Shown: positions 10,063-21,772 of the stretch, one piece after another
How positions within the stretch are numbered: position 1 is the stretch's first letter
Layout of the letters: every line of letters begins with the position of its first letter
Source: Rhodoplanes sp.
GTDB lineage: Bacteria > Pseudomonadota > Alphaproteobacteria > Rhizobiales > Xanthobacteraceae
Direction of reading: 5' to 3'
Length of the DNA stretch: 64,000 bases
NCBI RefSeq assembly: GCF_013377085.1
Contig: NZ_JACAAX010000004.1
Coordinates: 186,001-250,000, forward strand
Notes under the pieces: generated by a model
Databases searched by the model: none
What the model was told of the DNA's origin: nothing
The model's input: only the letters and a program-made list of their open reading frames with translations
Made by a program: the position numbers and the translations under genes

Positions 10063-11349
10063 GTGCCCGGACTGAACTCGACCATCGCGGCGCTGGCACG
10101 TCAACGTCAGCAGTGGGAAGCGTTTCTGCGGACGATTCCGGGAGGAGTCGCGCCGCGCGAGCGGCCGCCCGGCCCGACCCGGCTCCAAGAGGTCACGGAT
10201 TTCGGCGCCAATCCGGGCAATCTGCGGATGTGCACCTATGTGCCGCGCAACCCGCAGCGCGCCCTGGTGGTCGTCCTGCACGGCTGCACCCAGACGGCCG
10301 CGAGCTACGATCTCGGCGCCGGCTGGTCGACGCTGGCCGACCGTTACGGCTTCATGCTGCTGCTGCCCGAGCAGCGGGCGGAGAACAACCCGAAGACGTG
10401 CTTCAACTGGTTCCGTGAGAACGACATCACCCGCGGCCAGGGCGAGGCGGCCTCGATCCGGCAGATGATCACGACGATGGCGATCGAGCACGACGTCGAT
10501 CCCCGGCGCGTGTTCATCACCGGCCTGTCGGCCGGAGGGGGCATGACGGCCGTGATGCTGGCGACCTATCCGGAGGTCTTTGCCGCCGGCGCCATCATTG
10601 CGGGCCTGCCCTATCGCAGCGCGACCAGCACGCGCCAAGCGCTGGAGAGCATGTTCCGGGTGCGGGTGCGCACGCCGCGCGAATGGGGCGATCTCGTCCG
10701 CGCGGCGTCGCCTCATGCCGGGCCGTGGCCGCGCGTCTCGGTATGGCACGGCGGCGCCGACACGGTGGTCAAGCCGAAGAACGCCGAGGAACTGTTGAAG
10801 CAGTGGACCGACGTGCACGGGCTCGGCACCCAGGCGACCCGCACCGAGACGGTGGACGGCTATCCGCGCCATGTGTGGACGGATGCGTCGGGCGAGGTCG
10901 TCATCGAGTCCTACATCATTCCGCTGATGCCGCACGGCACCCCGCTCGCCAGCGGAGACGGCGACGAGAGCTACGGCGTGCCGGGCGAGTATCTGATCGA
11001 GGTCGGCATCTCGTCCTCCTATCACATCGCCTGCTTCTGGGGGCTGACCGAGAAGCGGCCGGCCGCGTCGCGGCCGCGTCGCACAGCGGAGTCGAGCGCA
11101 GCAACGCAGCGCGTCGTCGAGGCGCGTCCCGCAAAGGGGAGCGAGCCCACGCCCGCGCCGGTTCGGGCCGAGGTCATCGAGCAGCCAGGCCCGGGGGACG
11201 TCCCGCCGCCGCGGGCAGGGCGCTCGGAGGGGCCGGGCGAGAGTGCCGGCGCCGGCCGCGACAAGGCGCGCAAGTCGGGCGTCTCGGCCTTTGTCGAAGG
11301 CGCCATCAAGCGCGCCCTCGAAGCCGCCGGGATGATGAAGCGGCGCTGA
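10063..11349 (+). CDS. PHB depolymerase-family (LpqC-like) esterase
   Basis: Alpha/beta-hydrolase of the esterase PHB family (428 aa). It carries the oxyanion region VVVLHGCTQTA, the lipase box GLSAGG (GxSxG) with the nucleophilic Ser, an Asp in VWHGGADTVV, and a His in PLMPHGTPL, so the full triad is visible. The last ~100 residues are low-complexity and polar (Pro/Arg/Ala/Glu), ending in a short basic helix. No clear signal peptide is seen. The GTG start at 10063 follows AAGAGAGG. Likely substrates are short-chain polyester or aromatic esters; the true one is unknown. Confidence 0.87.
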   Translation: MPGLNSTIAALARQRQQWEAFLRTIPGGVAPRERPPGPTRLQEVTDFGANPGNLRMCTYVPRNPQRALVVVLHGCTQTAASYDLGAGWSTLADRYGFMLLLPEQRAENNPKTCFNWFRENDITRGQGEAASIRQMITTMAIEHDVDPRRVFITGLSAGGGMTAVMLATYPEVFAAGAIIAGLPYRSATSTRQALESMFRVRVRTPREWGDLVRAASPHAGPWPRVSVWHGGADTVVKPKNAEELLKQWTDVHGLGTQATRTETVDGYPRHVWTDASGEVVIESYIIPLMPHGTPLASGDGDESYGVPGEYLIEVGISSSYHIACFWGLTEKRPAASRPRRTAESSAATQRVVEARPAKGSEPTPAPVRAEVIEQPGPGDVPPPRAGRSEGPGESAGAGRDKARKSGVSAFVEGAIKRALEAAGMMKRR

Positions 11350-13051: not shown

Positions 13052-13899
13052 GCGACGAACCCTGCTGGCGAATCGGCCGGAGGCCGCACTCCCGAAGCGC
13101 CTCCTTTGCTGCGGCATGATGACGCCGCGGCACTCGGGCGCCAGAAAACTTGCCGTGATCGCACCGCAGCACGGCCTTCCGGGGGCCCTCTGGCCGCGGT
13201 GCCGCGCCATCGCGACGTCCCGCGACGGGGCCGCGCCGACCGCGACTCCGTCCGCCGGAAGGGCCGGCCGGACCTCGTTTCGCGGCGGAGCGGAGCTTCT
13301 GCACCACCGCTTTCGCATGTCAGGTCCGGCCGCGCGACATATCACTCGGTACGGGTCGGTCGTAGATCATGTGATATTTCACATGGCCGGTTTGCGGCCC
13401 GCGCGGATCGGCATCGGTGGCGGTCCGCACTGCAGCGCCACCATCACGCACCTGCAGCAATTCCCGAAACGACGCAGCCGAGACTCGAAGGTTCGGAAAA
13501 AATCACGTCGGCAAGGGAGCTTATAGGCATTCGGGGGCGTCCGTCCGCGGCCTCCTCCCGCGCTTCGATCGCCGCCGTCGAGCCGTGCGAACGGCAACCG
13601 TGGCGACAACCGTCGCGTTGCGGACGCCGTCCATGTGCAGACCGCAGTGCAGCACGCCGCGCTCCCGCCCCGGGGCCCTTTGACAATAGTCAGAGCGAGG
13701 TTCAGACCCTCGCAGTAGAAAGCCTCTAGTCAAGGTGGCAGGCAAGCCTGAGCAAGGCTCGGTGTGCAGGCCCGAAAAAGACAGCCTGGGGCGGAACGTC
13801 GAGTTTTCCGAAGGTTCGAGCGACCACGGTCGCCCCGGCTTGGACGCGAGCGACGGATCGCCTGCTCAGCGCAGACCACGTACCAGACGGACGCAGCAA
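13052..13899. other. Long divergent intergenic region
   Basis: About 850 bases between the LysR gene and the giant oxidoreductase gene, with no supported protein. The frame of the oxidoreductase stays open back to 13735, but the ATG at 13900 begins the family's conserved region. The region holds a strong palindrome at 13368-13385, listed separately, and an AT-rich patch near 13490-13525. A TTGACA at 13680-13685 lacks a good -10 at the right distance. Its length suggests complex control or an untranslated leader. Confidence 0.6.
13368..13385. promoter_or_regulatory. Perfect 7-4-7 palindrome, operator candidate
   Basis: CATGTGATATTTCACATG is a perfect inverted repeat with 7-base arms and a 4-base centre. 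The half-site TGTGA resembles the Crp type, but the 4-base spacing is like Fnr-type sites. Equally, the T-N11-A pattern of LysR boxes fits. It lies 317 bases from the LysR start and 515 bases upstream of the oxygen-sensitive-looking oxidoreductase. Which protein binds is inference. Confidence 0.55.
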
Positions 13900-16800
13900 A
13901 TGAACGCGAAATATCCTGGCATTTCGACAGTCATCAATGGAAATGGTGCCGTCGCTCAGGTGATGGGACACGTCTGCGGCGGCGTCATCGGTTATCCGAT
14001 CACGCCGTCCACCGAGATCTCCGAGCTCTACGAGGCGTTCCGCTCCGCCGGCGGCTGCAACGTCTGGGGCAAGCATCCCTTCTTCTTCGAGCCCGAGGGC
14101 GAGCATTCGGCGCAGTCCGGCGCGCTCGGCGCCGCGCTCACCGGCGGCAAGTTCGTCTCCAACGCCTCGTCGAGCCAGGGCATTCTGTACGGCCTCGAAT
14201 CGCACTACGTGACGGTCGGCAAGAAGGTCGGCGGCTTCGTGCTGCAGGTCGCCGCCCGCGTCGTGTCGAAGCACTCGCTCAACGTGATGGCGGGCCACGA
14301 CGACGTCTACGCCCTGCTGCAGTCCGGCTACACCATCCTGTTCGGCTCCAACCCGCAGGAAGCGGCCGACCTCTCCGTCATCTCCTACAAGGTGAGCGCC
14401 ACCTCGCTCATTCCGGTCGCCAACGCGATGGACGGCTTCGCCACCTCGCACATGATGAGCGAAGCCCTGATGCCGGAGCCCGAGCTGATCCGGGAGTTCC
14501 TCGGCGACCCGTCCGGGCGCGTCAAGGCGCTGACGGTGGCGCAGGAGATCCTGTTCGGCGCCAAGGGGCGCGGCTATCAGCTCAAGCAGTGGCTCGCCAA
14601 GCACGAGGGCGACTTCGTGCCGGGCGAACTCGCCAAGGTCCGCGCCTGGCTCGACACCAATATCGACGCGGTCGAGATCGACAATGCCGCCGCGATGATC
14701 GACGCGACGCTGGCGTTCGTGCCGGAGGAGCTGCGCCCGCAGTGGCGGCGGCAGTGGACCAACGCGTTCGAGAAGGGCACCCGCCAGCTCGTGCCGGCGC
14801 TGGTCGACGTCCACAATCCGGGCCTCACCGGCGGCGTGCAGAACCAGCCCGACTTCCAGGCCGGCTCGATGGACCATCGCACCCACTTCGTGCGTGACGT
14901 GCCGCGCTTCGTGCGCGAGGCGATGGCCGAGTACTCGGCTCTCACGGGCCGCGAGTACAAGCCGGTGATGACCTATATGTGCGACGACGCCGAGCACGTG
15001 ATGGTCGGGCTCGGCTCGGTCACCGACGACGTCGAGGCGGTGGTCGCGCATCTGCGCAGCAAGGGCAAGAAGGTCGGCGTCGTGTCGATCAAGCTGCTGC
15101 AGCCGTTCCCGGAGGCCGAGCTGGTCGAGGCCCTGAAGGGCAAGAAGTCCGTCACGGTGCTGGAGCGTTCCGACGTGACGGCGCTGACCAGCTTCGTCAC
15201 CCAGGCGCTGTTCAAGGCGGTCGAGAACGCCGGCGGCCCGCGCCATCCCGGCATCGCCGCGATCGAGCGGCTGCCCAAGATGACGACGGCGATCTTCGGC
15301 CTCGGCGCGCACGACCTGCAGCCGCGCCACCTGATCGCGGCGTTCAAGAACATGGAGACGACCAACGCGCCGTTCGTCTATCTCGGCTCGCAGTTCTTCG
15401 CCAAGGATCCGAGCCCGCGGCTCGCGGCCTTGCAGGAGCGCCTGAAGACGGCCTATCCCGAGACCGAGCTGATGGCGCTCGAGACCGAGCCGAACCCGAC
15501 CCTGCTGCCGCCCTCGGCCTTCCGGGTGCGCTTCCATTCGGTCGGCGGCTACGGCACCATCGCGACCGGCAAGCTCCTCACCGACATTCTCGCCGGCGTG
15601 CTCGACATGCACTCCAAGGCGTCGCCGAAATACGGTTCCGAGAAGAGCGGCGCACCGACCAACTACTACATCACGCTGAGCCCCGAGCAGGTGAAGATCA
15701 CCAATGCCGAGCTCGAGGACGTCGAGATCGTCGTCTCGCCGGACCACAAGGTGTTCAGCCACACCAATCCGCTGCGCGGCCTGGTCGAGGGCGGCACCTT
15801 CATGCTGCAGTCGAACCTCTCGCCGCTCGAAGTGTGGAAGGATCTGCCCAAGCGCGCCCGCAAGACGATCCGCGACAAGAAGATCAAGATGTTCGTGATG
15901 GACGGCTTCGCGGTCGCCAAGCGCCACGCGCCGACGCCCGAGCTCGAGACCCGCATGATGGGCATCGCCTTCATTGGGGCGGTCTGCGGCCATGTCGACC
16001 GCATCGTCGCCGACGCCTCGATCGACGTCATTCTCAAGAAGGTCCAGCAGCAGCTTTCGAAGAAGTTCGGCGCCAAGGGCGCCGCCGTGGTCGACGGCAA
16101 CATGGCCGTCATCAAGGAAGGCCTGGATGCGACGCACAGGCTCGACTACACGCAGCCGGAATTCGCCGAGCTGGAGACCGAGGAGACCGTCAAGGCGCTG
16201 CGCGGCGTCGCCATCTCGGCCGAAATGTGCCGGGTCGGCGGCTCGACGCCGTCCGGCGGCTTCTTCGACCGCGAGTACTACGACGACATGGTCGGCGCGC
16301 CGTTCCGCGACGGCACCGTCGCCGAAGCCCCGGTGCTGCCCGGCACCGGCCTGTTCATGCCGGCCGGCTCCGCCGCCTGGAAGGACAAGGGCCTGTTCCG
16401 CCGCGACGTGCCGGAGTTCCTGTCCGAGCTCTGCACCGGCTGCATGGAATGCACGCTGGTCTGCCCGGATGCGGCGATCCCCAACACGGTGCACGACATC
16501 CACGATCTGCTGCTCACCGGCATCAAGCATCTCGACCTGGTCGAGGCCCAGCGCGAGGCGGTGCGCGGCCAGATCTTCGCGTTGAGCGAAGCGGTCCGCG
16601 AGTCCTATCGGTCGACCAAGAAGGCGCAGTCGTTCGGCGAGGTGGTGACCGCGGCGGTCGCCAAGCTCGGCACCGACAACGCCACGCTCAAGCGCAATCT
16701 CGGCCGGCTCGCCGAGGTGCTGGAGACCTTCCCGGTCGCCAAGACGCGGCCCTTCTTCGACGCGATGGAGAAGGAGCAGCCCGGCACCGGCGGCCTCTAC

Positions 16801-18873
16801 TCGGTCGCCATCGACCCGTGGAAGTGCTCGGGGTGTCTGGAATGCATCGACGTGTGCGGCCCCGGCGCCCTCAAGGCGCGCGAGCAGGACGCGCCGCTGC
16901 TCGAGACCCTGCAGGCCCGCTTCGAGTTCCTCAGCGAGACGCCGAACACGCCGGTCCGCTTCACCGAAGCGGCATTGAGCCCGGGCGGCGACACCAAGCG
17001 GCTGATGCTCGACCGCACCAACTACTATGCCACCACGGGCGGCCACGGCGCCTGCCGCGGCTGCGGCGAGGTGACGGCGATCCGCCTGGTGACCTCGACC
17101 AACAACGCCATCCAGACCAAGCGGCGCAAGGGGCACCAGCGCGAGCTGGAGGCCCTGATCGAGAAGCTGCAGGCGAAGGTGCCTGCCGTGCAGGACGACA
17201 CGGCGCGGCGCGAGCGCATCGCCGGCGTGCTGAAGGTCCTCGAGAAGCGCCTTTATCTCCTGGAGAGCGGCCCGACCGGCAACGGCCCGGCCTCGGCCGT
17301 GATCGCCAACGCCACCGGCTGCTCGAGCGTCTACGCCTCGACCTTTCCGTTCAATCCCTACAACGACCCGTGGGTGAACAGCCTGTTCCAGGACACTCCG
17401 GCAGTCGCCAAGGGCATGTTCGAGGGCCTGACGGCGGCGGCGACCGACGACGTCAAGGCGCTGCGCATCGCCCAGCTCGAGCTCGACGACGCCTACGAGC
17501 CGGGCATGCACGACAAGTTCTTCCGCACCTTCTCGTGGCCGCAGTTCACGCCGGAGGAGCTCGCGCTGCTGCCGACCGTGATCAGCATGGGCGGTGACGG
17601 CGCCACCTACGACATCGGCTTCGGCGCGCTGTCGCGGTTGCTCACCACCAACACGCCCATCAAGGTCGTGGTGCTCAACACCGGCGCGTACTCCAACACC
17701 GGTGGCCAGGCCTCGACGGCGAGCCTGACGGGCCAGGACTCGGATCTGTCGCGCTTCGGTGCAGCCCATCACGGCAAGCAGGAGGACCGCAAGGAGCTCG
17801 GCCTGATCGCCGCCTTCCACCCGAACGTGTTCGTGGTGCAGACCTCGACGGCGCTGCAGCAGCACTTCCTGCAGAACGTCACCAAGTACCTCAACCACTC
17901 CTCGTCGCCGGCCGTGCTCGACGTCTACACGCCGTGCCAGGCCGAGCACGGGATCGCCGACGCGGCCGCCAGCCGGCGCTCCCGCCTCGCGGTCGAGAGC
18001 CGCATGAACCCGGTGTTCGTGCACGATCCGGGCGCGAGCCCGACCCGCCAGGGCTGGTTCTCGCTCGACGGCAATCCGGACGTCGACAAGGATTGGACGA
18101 AGACGACGGTGGAATATGTCGAGGACGGCGCCACCAAGCTGATGGACGTGCCGCTGACGCCGGCCTACTTCGCCCAGGAGGAGACCCGCTTCAAGAAGCA
18201 GTTCCGCAAGCTCGCGGCCGATGCCGACGCCATGCCGGTGCACGAGTTCATCGATCTCCCGATCGCCGACCGGGCCGGCAAGACCGCCTTCGTGTACTCG
18301 ACCGACCACGACAAGAAGCTGGTCAAGCTGGAGGTGGCCAACGAGATCATCCATCTGGTCGAGGAGCGCCGCAAATACTGGCGGACGCTGCAATACCTCG
18401 CCGGGCGGCAGATCGAGAAGCTGGACGCCGATCATCGCGTCGAGCTCGAGGCCTTGAAGCAGCGCTACGACGAGTCCGTGAAGACGCAGGAGTCGACGCT
18501 CGACACCATCGCCCGCGCGATGAGCGAGCTCGCCGCCTCGTCGAACGCCCCGGCGTCCGGCCTCGCGAGTGCGCTCGCCCCGTTCGGCGGCGCTCCGGCG
18601 GCGGCGACCGCCGCCCCGGCGGCGGCGGCGAAAGCCAACGGCGCCACGTTGCCCCACATCCACGACGAGGACGTCGCGGCCTGCACCAACTGTAAGACCT
18701 GCTACCAGCAGGTCCCCGAGCTGTTCGAGCTGACCAAGATCATGGTCGACGGCGCCCCCAAGGAGGTCGCCCACACCATCCCGGGCGCTCTCGACAAGGT
18801 GCAGATCACGCCGGAGCTGAAGGTCCGGGTGGCCAAGGCGGCGGCGAGCTGCGACGCGGAGATCATCCGATGA
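13900..18873 (+). CDS. Giant pyruvate:ferredoxin (2-oxoacid) oxidoreductase, NifJ-like
   Basis: Single-chain 2-oxoacid oxidoreductase of 1657 aa; ordinary NifJ is ~1170-1200. It would convert a 2-oxoacid plus CoA to acyl-CoA, CO2 and low-potential electrons. Domain order: N-terminal domain with GYPITPST and Arg120 in AAR, at the position of the pyruvate-contacting Arg of NifJ; GHDDVYA and MDGFATSH blocks; domain II; gamma domain FHSVGGYGT (~545); two 4Fe-4S motifs starting at C845 (CTGCMECTLVCP) and C976 (CSGCLECIDVC); TPP domain with GHGACRGCGE (~1048) and MGGDGATYDIGFG (~1230). Odd parts are a ~60-residue charged helical insert (~1070-1130) inside the TPP domain and a ~400-residue extension. 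The extension ends in a ferredoxin-like CTNCKTC (1595) with a distant Cys1651. Pyruvate is the likeliest substrate. It is coupled by ATGA to the next gene. Confidence 0.9.
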   Translation: MNAKYPGISTVINGNGAVAQVMGHVCGGVIGYPITPSTEISELYEAFRSAGGCNVWGKHPFFFEPEGEHSAQSGALGAALTGGKFVSNASSSQGILYGLESHYVTVGKKVGGFVLQVAARVVSKHSLNVMAGHDDVYALLQSGYTILFGSNPQEAADLSVISYKVSATSLIPVANAMDGFATSHMMSEALMPEPELIREFLGDPSGRVKALTVAQEILFGAKGRGYQLKQWLAKHEGDFVPGELAKVRAWLDTNIDAVEIDNAAAMIDATLAFVPEELRPQWRRQWTNAFEKGTRQLVPALVDVHNPGLTGGVQNQPDFQAGSMDHRTHFVRDVPRFVREAMAEYSALTGREYKPVMTYMCDDAEHVMVGLGSVTDDVEAVVAHLRSKGKKVGVVSIKLLQPFPEAELVEALKGKKSVTVLERSDVTALTSFVTQALFKAVENAGGPRHPGIAAIERLPKMTTAIFGLGAHDLQPRHLIAAFKNMETTNAPFVYLGSQFFAKDPSPRLAALQERLKTAYPETELMALETEPNPTLLPPSAFRVRFHSVGGYGTIATGKLLTDILAGVLDMHSKASPKYGSEKSGAPTNYYITLSPEQVKITNAELEDVEIVVSPDHKVFSHTNPLRGLVEGGTFMLQSNLSPLEVWKDLPKRARKTIRDKKIKMFVMDGFAVAKRHAPTPELETRMMGIAFIGAVCGHVDRIVADASIDVILKKVQQQLSKKFGAKGAAVVDGNMAVIKEGLDATHRLDYTQPEFAELETEETVKALRGVAISAEMCRVGGSTPSGGFFDREYYDDMVGAPFRDGTVAEAPVLPGTGLFMPAGSAAWKDKGLFRRDVPEFLSELCTGCMECTLVCPDAAIPNTVHDIHDLLLTGIKHLDLVEAQREAVRGQIFALSEAVRESYRSTKKAQSFGEVVTAAVAKLGTDNATLKRNLGRLAEVLETFPVAKTRPFFDAMEKEQPGTGGLYSVAIDPWKCSGCLECIDVCGPGALKAREQDAPLLETLQARFEFLSETPNTPVRFTEAALSPGGDTKRLMLDRTNYYATTGGHGACRGCGEVTAIRLVTSTNNAIQTKRRKGHQRELEALIEKLQAKVPAVQDDTARRERIAGVLKVLEKRLYLLESGPTGNGPASAVIANATGCSSVYASTFPFNPYNDPWVNSLFQDTPAVAKGMFEGLTAAATDDVKALRIAQLELDDAYEPGMHDKFFRTFSWPQFTPEELALLPTVISMGGDGATYDIGFGALSRLLTTNTPIKVVVLNTGAYSNTGGQASTASLTGQDSDLSRFGAAHHGKQEDRKELGLIAAFHPNVFVVQTSTALQQHFLQNVTKYLNHSSSPAVLDVYTPCQAEHGIADAAASRRSRLAVESRMNPVFVHDPGASPTRQGWFSLDGNPDVDKDWTKTTVEYVEDGATKLMDVPLTPAYFAQEETRFKKQFRKLAADADAMPVHEFIDLPIADRAGKTAFVYSTDHDKKLVKLEVANEIIHLVEERRKYWRTLQYLAGRQIEKLDADHRVELEALKQRYDESVKTQESTLDTIARAMSELAASSNAPASGLASALAPFGGAPAAATAAPAAAAKANGATLPHIHDEDVAACTNCKTCYQQVPELFELTKIMVDGAPKEVAHTIPGALDKVQITPELKVRVAKAAASCDAEIIR

Positions 18874-21698
18874 GCACGGCGAATCCCCAGGAGCAGCTCC
18901 TGCGCTACGCCCAGACGTCTCGCACGCTGGAGCAGACCCGCAGCCAGCTCGAGGAGCTGGAGCACTCCGAGGCGGTCGAGATCTTCCAGAAGCAGCTCGA
19001 CCTCCTCAAGAAGCGCCTGCTCGGCGACCCCAAGTCGCTGCGCAGCATGTTCGTCGCCGACGGCGTCCAGGCGATCGCCTGGGAGTTCCAGCAGGACGCG
19101 CTGAGCCCGGCCTTCACCAAGACGCTGTGGAGCCTGATGCTGCGCGACGACGACATGAGCGTCGTGCTGCTGCGCTTCATCTGGGCGATGCCGGTGCGGT
19201 TCAAGCGCAAGCTCATCAAGGCGATCGACGACCACCTGTCCGACAAGTACCCGATGTTCAAGGGCCTGTCGGTCAATTGGCCGTTCGACGCCTACATTCC
19301 GCCCTATATCCGGCCGCCGGAGGAGCGCAACCACGACTTCGCGCTCGTGAACACCGGCTATCTCGGCTACATGGCGCTCGGCTACACCGAGCGCGAGGTC
19401 GAGATGTTCGTCTGGCTCGAGGTGCTGCGCGACAAGCAGTGCCAGGACAAGCCGTGCGAGCTCGGCGTCCTGATCCACGGCAAGAAGGAGCCGAAGGGCG
19501 GCTGCCCGGTCAAGATCCACATCCCCGAGATGCTGGACATGCTGGGCCAGGGCAAGTTCCGCCAGGCGCTCGAGCTGATCGAAAGCTGCAACCCGCTGCC
19601 CAACGTCACGGGCCGCGTGTGTCCGCAGGAGCTGCAGTGCCAGGGCGTCTGCAAGCACACCCATCGGCCGCTCGAGATCGGGCAGATCGAGTGGTTCCTG
19701 CCGCAGCGCGAGAAGCTGGTCGGCCCGAAGCCGGAAGAGCGATTCAAGGGCCGTATCAGCCCGTGGGCGCACGCCGAGAAGCCGCCCATCGCGGTGGTCG
19801 GCTCCGGCCCGTCCGGCCTGATCAACGCCTATCTGCTCGCCGCGGAGGGGTTCCCGGTCACGGTGTTCGAGGCGTTCCACGACCTCGGCGGCGTGCTGCG
19901 CTACGGCATTCCCGAGTTCCGCCTGCCGAACGAGCTGATCGACGACGTGGTCGGCAAGATCACGCTGCTGGGCGGCCGCTTCGTCAAGAACTTCGTGGTC
20001 GGCAAGACCGCGACGCTCGAGGATCTGAAGGAGGCCGGCTTCTGGAAGATCTTCGTCGGCACCGGCGCCGGCCTGCCGACCTTCATGAACGTGCCGGGCG
20101 AGCACTTTCTCGGCGTCATGTCGGCCAACGAGTTCCTCACCCGCGTCAACCTGATGCGGGCGCTCGACGACAAGTACGAGACGCCGCTGCCCGACATCAA
20201 GGACAAGCAGGTCTTCGTCGTCGGCGGCGGCAACACCGCGATGGACGCGGCCCGCACGGCGCGGCGCCTCGGCGGCCACGTGACGATCGTCTATCGCCGC
20301 ACCAAGTCGGAGATGCCGGCCCGCGTCGAGGAGCTGCACCACGCCCTCGAGGAGGGCATCGACCTCAAGGTGCTGCGTGCGCCGATCGAGTTCATCGGTG
20401 ACGAGAAGACGCACTTCATCAGCCACGCCGTGCTGGCCGTCAACCAGCTCGGCCCGCCCGACAAGTCGGGCCGCCGCGCGCCGAAGCCTACCGGCGAGAC
20501 CGAGCGTGTGCCGGTCGACCTCGTCATCATGGCGCTGGGCAACACCGCGAACCCGATCATGAAGGACGCGGAGCCCGACCTGAAGACCTCCAAGTGGGGC
20601 ACCATCGAGGTGCCGGAGGGCTCGCAGAAGACCTCGATCGCGGACGTCTACTCCGGCGGCGACGCCGCCCGCGGCGGCTCGACCGCCATCCGGGCGGCCG
20701 GCGACGGCCAGGCGGCGGCGCGCGAGATCGTCGGCGACATCCCGTTCACGCCGGCCGAGATCAAGGTGCGGGTCGACAAGGCGGCCCGCTACACCGAGCT
20801 CGGCCAGGTCAAGCAGACCGTGGTCGAGAAGATCGCGCTCGCCGGCGGCATCGTCGAGTTCAAGGTGCGGGCCCCGATGGTGGCCCACTCCGCCAAGGCC
20901 GGCCAGTTCGTACGTGTGCTGGGCTGGGACGACGGCGAGCTGATCCCGCTCACCCTCGCCGACTGGGACGCCGAGGCCGGCACCATCGACCTGGTCATCC
21001 AGGGCATGGGCACCTCGACGCTGCTGATGAACAAGATGGCGGTCGGCGACGCCTTCGCCGGCATTGCCGGCCCGCTCGGGCGTGCGAGCGAGGTGCACCA
21101 TTACGGCCCCGACCAGACCGTGGTGTTCACGGCCGGCGGCGTCGGCCTGCCGCCCGTCTATCCGATCGCGCGGGCGCATCTCGAGCTCGGCAATCACGTC
21201 ACCCTGATCGCCGGCTTCCGCTCCAAGGACTTCCTGTTCTGGACCGGAGACGACGAGCGGATGGGCAAGCTGAAGGCCAAGTACGGCGATCAGCTCGACA
21301 TCATCTACGCGACCAATGACGGCACCTTCGGCATCAAGGGCTTCGTCACGACGCCGCTCGAGGAGATGCTGAAGAACGACAAGACCAGCAAGGGCCGCAA
21401 GATCGCCGAGGTCATCACGATCGGTCCGCCGATCATGATGCGGGTCGTCTCCGACCTGACCAAGCCTTACGGCGTGAAGACGGTGGCGAGCCTCAACTCG
21501 ATCATGGTGGACGCGACGGGCATGTGCGGCGCCTGCATGGTGCCGATCACGGTCGACGGCAAGATGGTGCGCAAGCACGCCTGCATCGACGGTCCGGAGC
21601 TCGATGCCCACCTGATCGACTGGGACAAGTTCCTGCCGCGGTTCAACACCTTCAAGGCGCAGGAGCAGCGCAGCAAGGTGGCGCACGGGCTGGCCTGA
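18870..21698 (+). CDS. Fused GltD-like / PyrK-like flavoprotein (NfnBA-like), NAD(P) partner of the 2-oxoacid oxidoreductase
   Basis: Predicted cytoplasmic iron-sulfur flavoprotein of 942 aa. Residues ~1-170 match no domain I know. Then comes a GltD-type half: cysteines ~240-260 (GRVCPQELQCQGVC), FAD site VGSGPSGL (~310) and NAD(P) site VGGGNTAMD (~451). The C-terminal third (~650-942) is PyrK/ferredoxin-reductase-like, with FTAGGVGLPPVYPIA and a 2Fe-2S-type cysteine set near C886 (MCGACMVP ... HACIDGPE). GltD- and PyrK-like halves are the two subunits of NfnAB, the bifurcating ferredoxin:NADP oxidoreductase; here they are fused in B-A order. Its start overlaps the previous stop (ATGA), so the two proteins are probably made stoichiometrically. 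The likely job is passing electrons from the oxidoreductase to NAD(P). Bifurcation is speculative. Confidence 0.88.
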   Translation: MSTANPQEQLLRYAQTSRTLEQTRSQLEELEHSEAVEIFQKQLDLLKKRLLGDPKSLRSMFVADGVQAIAWEFQQDALSPAFTKTLWSLMLRDDDMSVVLLRFIWAMPVRFKRKLIKAIDDHLSDKYPMFKGLSVNWPFDAYIPPYIRPPEERNHDFALVNTGYLGYMALGYTEREVEMFVWLEVLRDKQCQDKPCELGVLIHGKKEPKGGCPVKIHIPEMLDMLGQGKFRQALELIESCNPLPNVTGRVCPQELQCQGVCKHTHRPLEIGQIEWFLPQREKLVGPKPEERFKGRISPWAHAEKPPIAVVGSGPSGLINAYLLAAEGFPVTVFEAFHDLGGVLRYGIPEFRLPNELIDDVVGKITLLGGRFVKNFVVGKTATLEDLKEAGFWKIFVGTGAGLPTFMNVPGEHFLGVMSANEFLTRVNLMRALDDKYETPLPDIKDKQVFVVGGGNTAMDAARTARRLGGHVTIVYRRTKSEMPARVEELHHALEEGIDLKVLRAPIEFIGDEKTHFISHAVLAVNQLGPPDKSGRRAPKPTGETERVPVDLVIMALGNTANPIMKDAEPDLKTSKWGTIEVPEGSQKTSIADVYSGGDAARGGSTAIRAAGDGQAAAREIVGDIPFTPAEIKVRVDKAARYTELGQVKQTVVEKIALAGGIVEFKVRAPMVAHSAKAGQFVRVLGWDDGELIPLTLADWDAEAGTIDLVIQGMGTSTLLMNKMAVGDAFAGIAGPLGRASEVHHYGPDQTVVFTAGGVGLPPVYPIARAHLELGNHVTLIAGFRSKDFLFWTGDDERMGKLKAKYGDQLDIIYATNDGTFGIKGFVTTPLEEMLKNDKTSKGRKIAEVITIGPPIMMRVVSDLTKPYGVKTVASLNSIMVDATGMCGACMVPITVDGKMVRKHACIDGPELDAHLIDWDKFLPRFNTFKAQEQRSKVAHGLA

Positions 21699-21743: not shown

Positions 21744-21772
21744 AAGGAGCAGGGCCGAGCCCTGCTCCTTTT
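21744..21772 (+). terminator. Rho-independent terminator after the oxidoreductase operon
   Basis: A perfect 12-bp stem, AAGGAGCAGGGC / GCCCTGCTCCTT, with a 3-base loop, followed by TTTT overlapping the stem end. It lies 46 bases after the flavoprotein stop, so the two-gene operon ends here. Confidence 0.88.

Follow-up and report, generated by a model that had tools for sequence, protein, structure and literature searches.

2-Oxoacid oxidoreductases that work with a flavoprotein of their own are a known kind of enzyme. In the Euglena-type pyruvate:NADP+ oxidoreductase (PNO), a pyruvate:ferredoxin oxidoreductase (PFOR) has its own flavoprotein for NADP reduction, an NADPH-cytochrome P450 reductase module fused to it covalently. 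Azoarcus KorABC and the phenylglyoxylate dehydrogenase Pad are 2-oxoacid:NAD(P)+ oxidoreductases with a GltD-like subunit, made of separate small subunits and not known to have an NfnS half or a tethered ferredoxin. Some PNO relatives are secondarily without the reductase (PMC6993867). Here, we analyzed a gene pair in a 64,000-nucleotide stretch of Rhodoplanes sp. (contig NZ_JACAAX010000004.1; hereafter the window), in which a giant PFOR-like protein ending in a ferredoxin domain is directly followed by a fused Nfn-type flavoprotein. By sequence comparison, the pair is probably a closed, ferredoxin-independent pyruvate:NAD(P) oxidoreductase that is used without oxygen.

The flavoprotein resembles a layout that is already on record. 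Liang et al. (2019) describe a fused Nfn arrangement, 'Pattern C', from Actinobacteria, Alpha- and Gammaproteobacteria, which exceeds other fusions by about 200 residues, is treated as uncharacterized and is exemplified by M. curtisii; a figure legend of the same article has PFOR among the names of neighboring genes (PMC6405883). In the Nfn tree of Poudel et al. (2018), the Mobiluncus curtisii protein forms the earliest-branching lineage (PMC6085437). Judging from length, domain order and host groups, Pattern C appears to correspond to the family NF009415/PRK12779. The sequence-only reading of this DNA knew of no characterization of the architecture; the GltD+PyrK fusion proves to be known (NF009415; Pattern C, PMC6405883), and its coupling to an arm-bearing PFOR appears to be new. 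We found no description of an arm-bearing PFOR, or of the pair as a complex, in searches of an open-access library, and passages of PMC11636981, PMC12455942, PMC4930944, PMC6593406 and PMC12151479 mention PFOR or pyruvate synthase and do not describe the pair. The kind of enzyme is known and its wiring appears new; the firm new result is the coupling of the arm-bearing PFOR to the fused flavoprotein.

The two genes are ORF 1 (13900-18870, + strand, 1657 aa, stop codon to 18873) and ORF 2 (18870-21698, + strand, 942 aa), which overlap in an ATGA. Their parts are as follows.

13900 to 18873, + strand: giant PFOR-like 2-oxoacid oxidoreductase, 1657 aa (best family TIGR02176).
13984 to 14547, + strand: POR_N thiamine diphosphate domain, residues 29-216, with T35 and R120 invariant (Pfam, alignment).
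15544 to 16125, + strand: POR gamma domain, residues 549-742 (Pfam).
16432 to 16857, + strand: two 4Fe-4S motifs, C845/848/851/855 and C976/979/982/986 (all eight Cys in 84/84 proteins).
17053 to 17937, + strand: presumed proximal cluster cysteines C1052, C1055, C1141 and C1346, and TPP_enzyme_C (17575-17925) with N1266 (84/84).
18535 to 18669, + strand: flexible Ala/Pro/Gly/Ser linker, residues 1546-1590 (composition, low conservation).
18670 to 18870, + strand: tethered single-cluster ferredoxin domain, the arm, residues 1591-1657, with C1595, C1598, C1601 and C1651 (Fer4_15).
18870 to 21698, + strand: fused Nfn-type flavoprotein, NfnL/GltD then NfnS/PyrK, 942 aa (NF009415, fold).
18870 to 19409, + strand: N-terminal all-helical domain, about residues 1-180 (pLDDT 84; without a solved relative).
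19431 to 19691, + strand: two-cluster region, presumed distal D188, C191, C196, C261 and proximal C212, C251, C257, E274 (invariant in 70/70).
19788 to 20705, + strand: FAD/NADP(H) Rossmann domains, residues 307-612, with RRT at 476-478 (Pfam, alignment).
20811 to 21617, + strand: NfnS/PyrK-like FAD-NAD(H) module with presumed [2Fe-2S] ligands D881, C886, C889 and C905 (Pfam, alignment).

To assess the pairing, the window's giant PFOR was aligned with eight copies from one other genus, in all eight of which the flavoprotein adjoins, and this query was used to scan named genomes. The best 80 of 348 relatives were taken, and pairing was counted over 88 relatives, with seven loci untestable because their contigs end downstream; L023, one of 45 chosen rows, was left out of alignment A3. 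The sequence-only reading had proposed the co-occurrence of the two genes as a check, and the result agrees with it. In all 75 testable full-length relatives, the PFOR has the flavoprotein (on contigs that stop within it, its first part) directly after it on the same strand; both frame-broken PFOR copies are also followed by it (2/2), while none of the armless PFORs has it next (0/4 among the 88; 0/5 with the later-found L129). Since the genes are neighbors in 75/75 cases, the pair, whose overlap and lengths had been read in the same way from the sequence, is not a chance reading frame; 43 of the 75 pairs show the same gap of -4. Distances in the two proteins are correlated (0.875 over 69 pairs, with a permutation maximum of 0.139), indicating co-inheritance. 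Within the window's family, all 25 other flavoprotein carriers have the PFOR adjacent (coordinates compared by eye).

The four armless copies among the 88 come from three Pleomorphomonas (L105, L106, L108) and a Hyphomicrobiales metagenome-assembled genome (L083). Their proteins stop before the ferredoxin domain, a search of the four loci for the arm domain found none, and no NF009415 member above the cut-off occurs anywhere in the three Pleomorphomonas genomes. The Hyphomicrobiales genome holds elsewhere a contig that starts inside an arm-bearing PFOR (residues 1286-1657) and continues with the flavoprotein in two pieces. The fifth armless copy, L129, comes from a member of the window's genus in which a normal pair is present too, and it is unpaired despite 4.2 kb of room. 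All five armless copies may be ferredoxin-dependent. By eye, L083 adjoins genes resembling KorA/KorB.

In the PFOR tree, the Pleomorphomonas copies nest beside paired copies of Aliiruegeria, Tropicimonas and Cohaesibacter (support 0.98; 0.99 for the core alone). L083 and L129 stand apart from them, together with the paired L077; support for L083 with L077 is 0.99 and 0.95, falling to 0.38 and 0.85 with L129. Because armless forms thus sit in at least two places among paired copies, arm and partner were apparently lost, or gained, jointly at least twice. Their joint absence is the strongest comparative evidence that the arm may serve the partner.

The core of the giant protein has the anatomy of PFOR/NifJ (TIGR02176; PDB 6cin, 1b0p). 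It contains POR_N, PFOR_II, POR, two Fer4 motifs, TPP_enzyme_C and a C-terminal Fer4_15, and the domain order, the twelve core cluster cysteines and the positions for thiamine diphosphate and substrate are kept in 84/84 proteins. The latter include T35, R120 and N1266, which we take to be the equivalents of T31, R114 and N996 of the D. africanus PFOR, after which the proximal cluster was presumptively assigned as well. Against TIGR02176 the protein scores 393.6 bits, below the curated cut-off of 911.35, and the ordinary NifJ of the same genome reaches 1800.8 bits. Solved PFORs align piecewise over the core up to residue 1391. The giant protein is about 430-490 aa longer than these, due to inserts between the two ferredoxin motifs (a segment longer than in ordinary PFOR) and before a conserved Gly-Cys, and to about 265 residues past the aligned core that comprise the linker and end in the single-cluster ferredoxin domain.

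This terminal domain, whose ferredoxin-like cysteines had been spotted in the sequence-only reading, matches Fer4_15 and, by profile, the solved ferredoxins 7m1o (E 0.0002) and 7m1n (E 0.0004), and its four cysteines are present in 80/80 full-length proteins. The preceding linker varies from 36 to 66 aa, consists to 65% of A/P/G/S and has the lowest conservation of nine stretches compared (0.43, against 0.79 for residues 1-860 and 0.70 for the arm; n = 80). Because the linker is variable and rich in these residues while the arm is well conserved, the four-Cys [4Fe-4S] domain is likely a swinging ferredoxin arm.

The flavoprotein is a full-length member of NCBIfam NF009415 (1850.4 bits, residues 6-942 of 942, cut-off 1519) and carries Fer4_20, Pyr_redox_2, NAD_binding_1 and DHODB_Fe-S_bind. 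Its predicted structure (pLDDT 79, pTM 0.77; low confidence at 246-260, 339-351 and 880-888) resembles both Nfn subunits, with target-normalized TM-scores of 0.86 to 5jca_L and 0.89 to 5jca_S, which bears out the earlier view that the partner contains both Nfn halves. Its closest known counterpart is the NADH-dependent ferredoxin:NADP+ oxidoreductase NfnSL/NfnAB, above all the fused Pattern C, with which it shares the modules and their order, plus about 200 N-terminal residues. For the conserved N-terminal helical domain, no relative of known structure emerged, either by PDB profile (E <= 1) or by fold (E <= 0.001; best 2.1); it is possibly a docking domain.

The cluster ligands expected of the Nfn halves are retained, with one exception. 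C191, C196, C212, C251, C257, C261, E274, D881, C886, C889, C905 and the RRT motif are kept in 70/70 flavoproteins, whereas position 188, which in Nfn holds the distal cluster's first Cys, is Asp in 70/70 and Cys in all seven canonical NfnL compared (four aligned and three by motif, L010, L011 and L031; L115, L119 and L123 were left out since their ligand region is uncovered). Ligands were assigned on the assumption that they correspond to those of the DPD/Nfn structures. The ferredoxin of P. furiosus uses an Asp as cluster ligand, and by analogy Asp188 may ligate the distal cluster. PMC6405883 describes Pattern C as a free Nfn; the flavoprotein in the window comes with an arm-bearing PFOR and differs by an Asp at one distal-cluster Cys position.

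A candidate element lies upstream of the pair, and no further constant neighbor was found.

13680 to 13693, + strand: FNR/FixK-like half-palindrome TTGACAATAGTCAG, with one mismatch to TTGA-N6-TCAA, starting 220 bp 5' of the start codon.

We take TTGA-N6-TCAA as the FNR/FixK consensus. The same site occurs in three near relatives (L035, L036, L037), and exact boxes lie within 300 bases upstream in 19/87 relatives, compared with 30/5716 control tiles and 22/1444 other mechanical ORFs of the same loci; two of 89 sequences were dropped for having fewer than 300 bases upstream. The box-bearing loci come from several clades and include close relatives. One-mismatch boxes in the window number 10 against 5.8 expected, which is not significant, and no consensus promoter was found. 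Among 81 stretches, no third conserved neighbor gene was found (frames >=130 aa, E <= 1e-25). The largest neighbor families are an ABC-transporter ATPase-like protein (by look; a common type; 19/81) and an antisense frame over the flavoprotein end (10/81).

Taken together, anatomy, conservation, pairing, the joint absence of arm and partner and the upstream box support, at the level of sequence comparison, a closed pyruvate:NAD(P) oxidoreductase. On thiamine diphosphate, the PFOR core would split pyruvate with CoA, or make pyruvate from acetyl-CoA and CO2. Single electrons would pass along three internal [4Fe-4S] clusters to the fourth [4Fe-4S] domain on its flexible C-terminal linker, and this arm would swing between the PFOR and the flavoprotein, docking where Nfn binds free ferredoxin. 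From there, electrons would enter at the distal cluster, with its Asp replacing one Cys, and proceed via the proximal cluster and the first FAD to NADP(H); the second FAD and the [2Fe-2S] site would serve NAD(H), a role for which the retention of the whole NfnS half argues. Anaerobic use would be under FNR/FixK-type control. In phototrophs the pair may interconvert acetyl-CoA and pyruvate, and in non-phototrophs oxidize pyruvate to NAD(P)H. We infer the electron route, docking, substrate, anaerobic use and direction. With potentials of -500, -380 and -280 mV and under cell-like conditions, pyruvate oxidation would release 23 kJ/mol when it yields NADPH and 43 kJ/mol when it yields NADH.

The closed 2-oxoacid:NAD(P) machine, the central proposal of the sequence-only reading, is therefore backed by pairing, invariant ligands and the lack of another conserved neighbor, as far as comparison reaches. 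Its substrate had been left open among three 2-oxoacids, and pyruvate now appears best supported by sequence, PFOR being the best family and the active-site positions invariant. Several observations weigh against the reading as a whole. The relatives are not independent samples, and they cover the best 80 of 348, so that more distant members may have other habits. The TIGR02176 cut-off is missed (394 vs 911 bits), and pyruvate is for this reason not certain. The window's own box has one mismatch, the box counts take in close relatives, and the box also precedes the armless L105, L106 and L108, so it speaks for PFOR regulation rather than for pairing.

Wiring sets the pair apart from its described counterparts. 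PNO has its fused P450 reductase module, whereas the window pair has an Nfn-type partner and a tethered ferredoxin; no C-terminal cytochrome P450 reductase module was found in either protein (Pfam, E <= 0.1). KorABC and Pad share a dedicated flavoprotein with the window pair, which adds an NfnS half and a tethered ferredoxin that these enzymes are not known to have.

The likeliest alternative is a three-way bifurcating or confurcating enzyme employing both flavins (pyruvate + CoA + NADH + 2 NADP+ <-> acetyl-CoA + CO2 + NAD+ + 2 NADPH), in which NADPH could drive reductive carboxylation without free ferredoxin; we regard it as a tentative possibility. Bifurcation is established for Nfn of this fold (PMC6405883, PMC6085437), every cluster ligand position except one is kept in 70/70 flavoproteins, and a plain NADP reductase should presumably not need the retained NfnS half. 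On the same potentials, the coupled reaction lies near equilibrium (about 4 kJ/mol), and uncoupled NADPH-driven carboxylation costs about 23 kJ/mol. Yet the Asp for Cys at the distal cluster, in 70/70, may shift potentials, and the 2019 review states that sequence alone cannot tell bifurcating from non-bifurcating Nfn homologues (PMC6405883). In its fullest form, flavin-based bifurcation would be built into one complex, with the arm replacing the ferredoxin pool (2 NADPH + NAD+ + acetyl-CoA + CO2 <-> pyruvate + NADH + 2 NADP+ + CoA), which we judge rather unlikely.

Another 2-oxoacid (oxaloacetate, 2-oxobutyrate, 2-oxoglutarate or an aryl-pyruvate) is an unlikely substrate. With 394 bits against a cut-off of 911, the protein lies well outside curated PFOR, and the same genome has several further 2-oxoacid oxidoreductases, two of them beside flavoproteins; PFOR nevertheless clearly outscores every other family (394 bits, the runner-up 175), with PFOR-type active-site positions invariant.

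It is improbable that the two genes simply share an operon, encoding a ferredoxin-dependent PFOR of the ordinary kind and an independent Nfn that both draw on the soluble ferredoxin pool. In its favor, PFOR and Nfn each exist as enzymes in their own right, the genome also encodes an ordinary NifJ (1801 bits to TIGR02176) and, apart from the pair, an unfused Nfn cluster, and armless copies presumably use free ferredoxin. Against it, arm and partner are jointly absent, no arm-bearing copy among 75 testable and no flavoprotein among 26 family carriers is unpaired, and short frames with a CxxCxxCxxxC motif, the one ferredoxin type searched, occur within 3 kb in two loci only (82 with room upstream, 60 beyond the flavoprotein).

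The giant PFOR occurs across a wide range of bacteria. Carriers among the best 80 are Rhodoplanes (88% identity), Rhodopseudomonas, Blastochloris, Rhodopila, Propionivibrio, Rhodoferax, Thiosymbion, Sodalis, Cohaesibacter and several Actinobacteria. Of the actinobacterial PFORs, most fall into a single group of 17 tips (support 0.999; one tip from a record labelled Proteobacteria), and two more lie just outside it, nested near Sodalis and betaproteobacterial copies in the midpoint-rooted tree; this placement suggests transfer. The flavoprotein scored above the cut-off in 1/289 genomes of a class sample, in 9/398 of a phylum sample (eight from a single genus, plus the window's genome) and in 26/218 genomes of the window's family. 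An Actinomycetota sample gave 1/396, the seed itself, and is uninformative for flavoprotein-alone occurrence.

In the window's family, reaction-centre genes are present in 30/218 genomes, namely in 24/26 flavoprotein carriers versus 6/192 non-carriers, and none of these six holds the PFOR (0/6). By genus, the pair and reaction-centre genes remain associated (5/10 vs 2/37, p 0.0028). A sample of Acetobacteraceae, the family of Rhodopila, adds a further point against the reading, with carriers in 3/67 reaction-centre genomes vs 1/133 others (p 0.11, not significant). To our knowledge, some named carriers are not known as phototrophs. Phototrophy as a general function is rejected on these two observations; it is one setting of the pair, not its function. 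According to a review (PMC8307300), nine R. palustris strains could form pyruvate from acetate by way of pyruvate:ferredoxin oxidoreductase, and acetate cultures of strain CGA009 transcribe this route.

Carbon storage (polyhydroxyalkanoate or glycogen) was considered as well. The lead came from the names of the carriers Accumulibacter, Propionivibrio, Kineosphaera, Micropruina and Nostocoides, to which we ascribe carbon-storage habits, and from a PHB depolymerase-family esterase (PF10503) upstream of the pair at 10063-11349, with a relative in three near-relative loci. It is kept as a lead; no conserved storage gene was found beside the pair.

Downstream, the window contains one further element.

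21744 to 21770, + strand: terminator-like hairpin, perfect 12 bp, GC-rich, loop CGA, T's to 21772.

Its folding energy is far below that of shuffles (z -4.35; 0/200 as good), in keeping with the strong terminator first proposed, but only four T's stand 3' of the GC-rich part, two of them paired in the stem, and a consensus terminator scanner did not report it.

Related clusters were observed at other loci. Near the pair, four loci (L076, L042, L051, L112) have another GltD-like gene, followed in L076 (1709-6957) by a second PFOR-like frame. In the window's genome, an Nfn of separate PyrK-like and GltD-like proteins, the canonical Cys included, stands immediately before the alpha and beta subunits of a 2-oxoacid oxidoreductase (L031, 6820-14561). 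This cluster also encodes a protein of 738 aa that ends in a 4Fe-4S ferredoxin domain and is weakly like the thiamine diphosphate region of the giant PFOR; the cluster is perhaps a parallel, multi-subunit version of the arm-plus-Nfn idea. In the same genome, a GltD-like protein has as neighbors the alpha subunit of a 2-oxoacid oxidoreductase and a beta-like frame (L033, 4101-9400), which we liken to the Azoarcus KorABC arrangement.

The natural variants with and without the arm make the proposed mechanism directly testable, with the armless copies as natural controls. If Pattern C is a PFOR subunit and not a free transhydrogenase, the published rooting of Nfn on M. curtisii needs re-examination, and conclusions on the origin of Nfn may be affected. 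Besides free ferredoxin and the PNO fusion, the pair would provide one more route for connecting an acetyl-CoA/pyruvate enzyme to NAD(P). Purple phototrophs could use it to carboxylate acetyl-CoA or oxidize pyruvate, perhaps without competing with nitrogenase for ferredoxin. Should bifurcation hold, purple bacteria and facultative anaerobes would carboxylate acetyl-CoA, or gain NADPH from pyruvate and NADH, without free ferredoxin.

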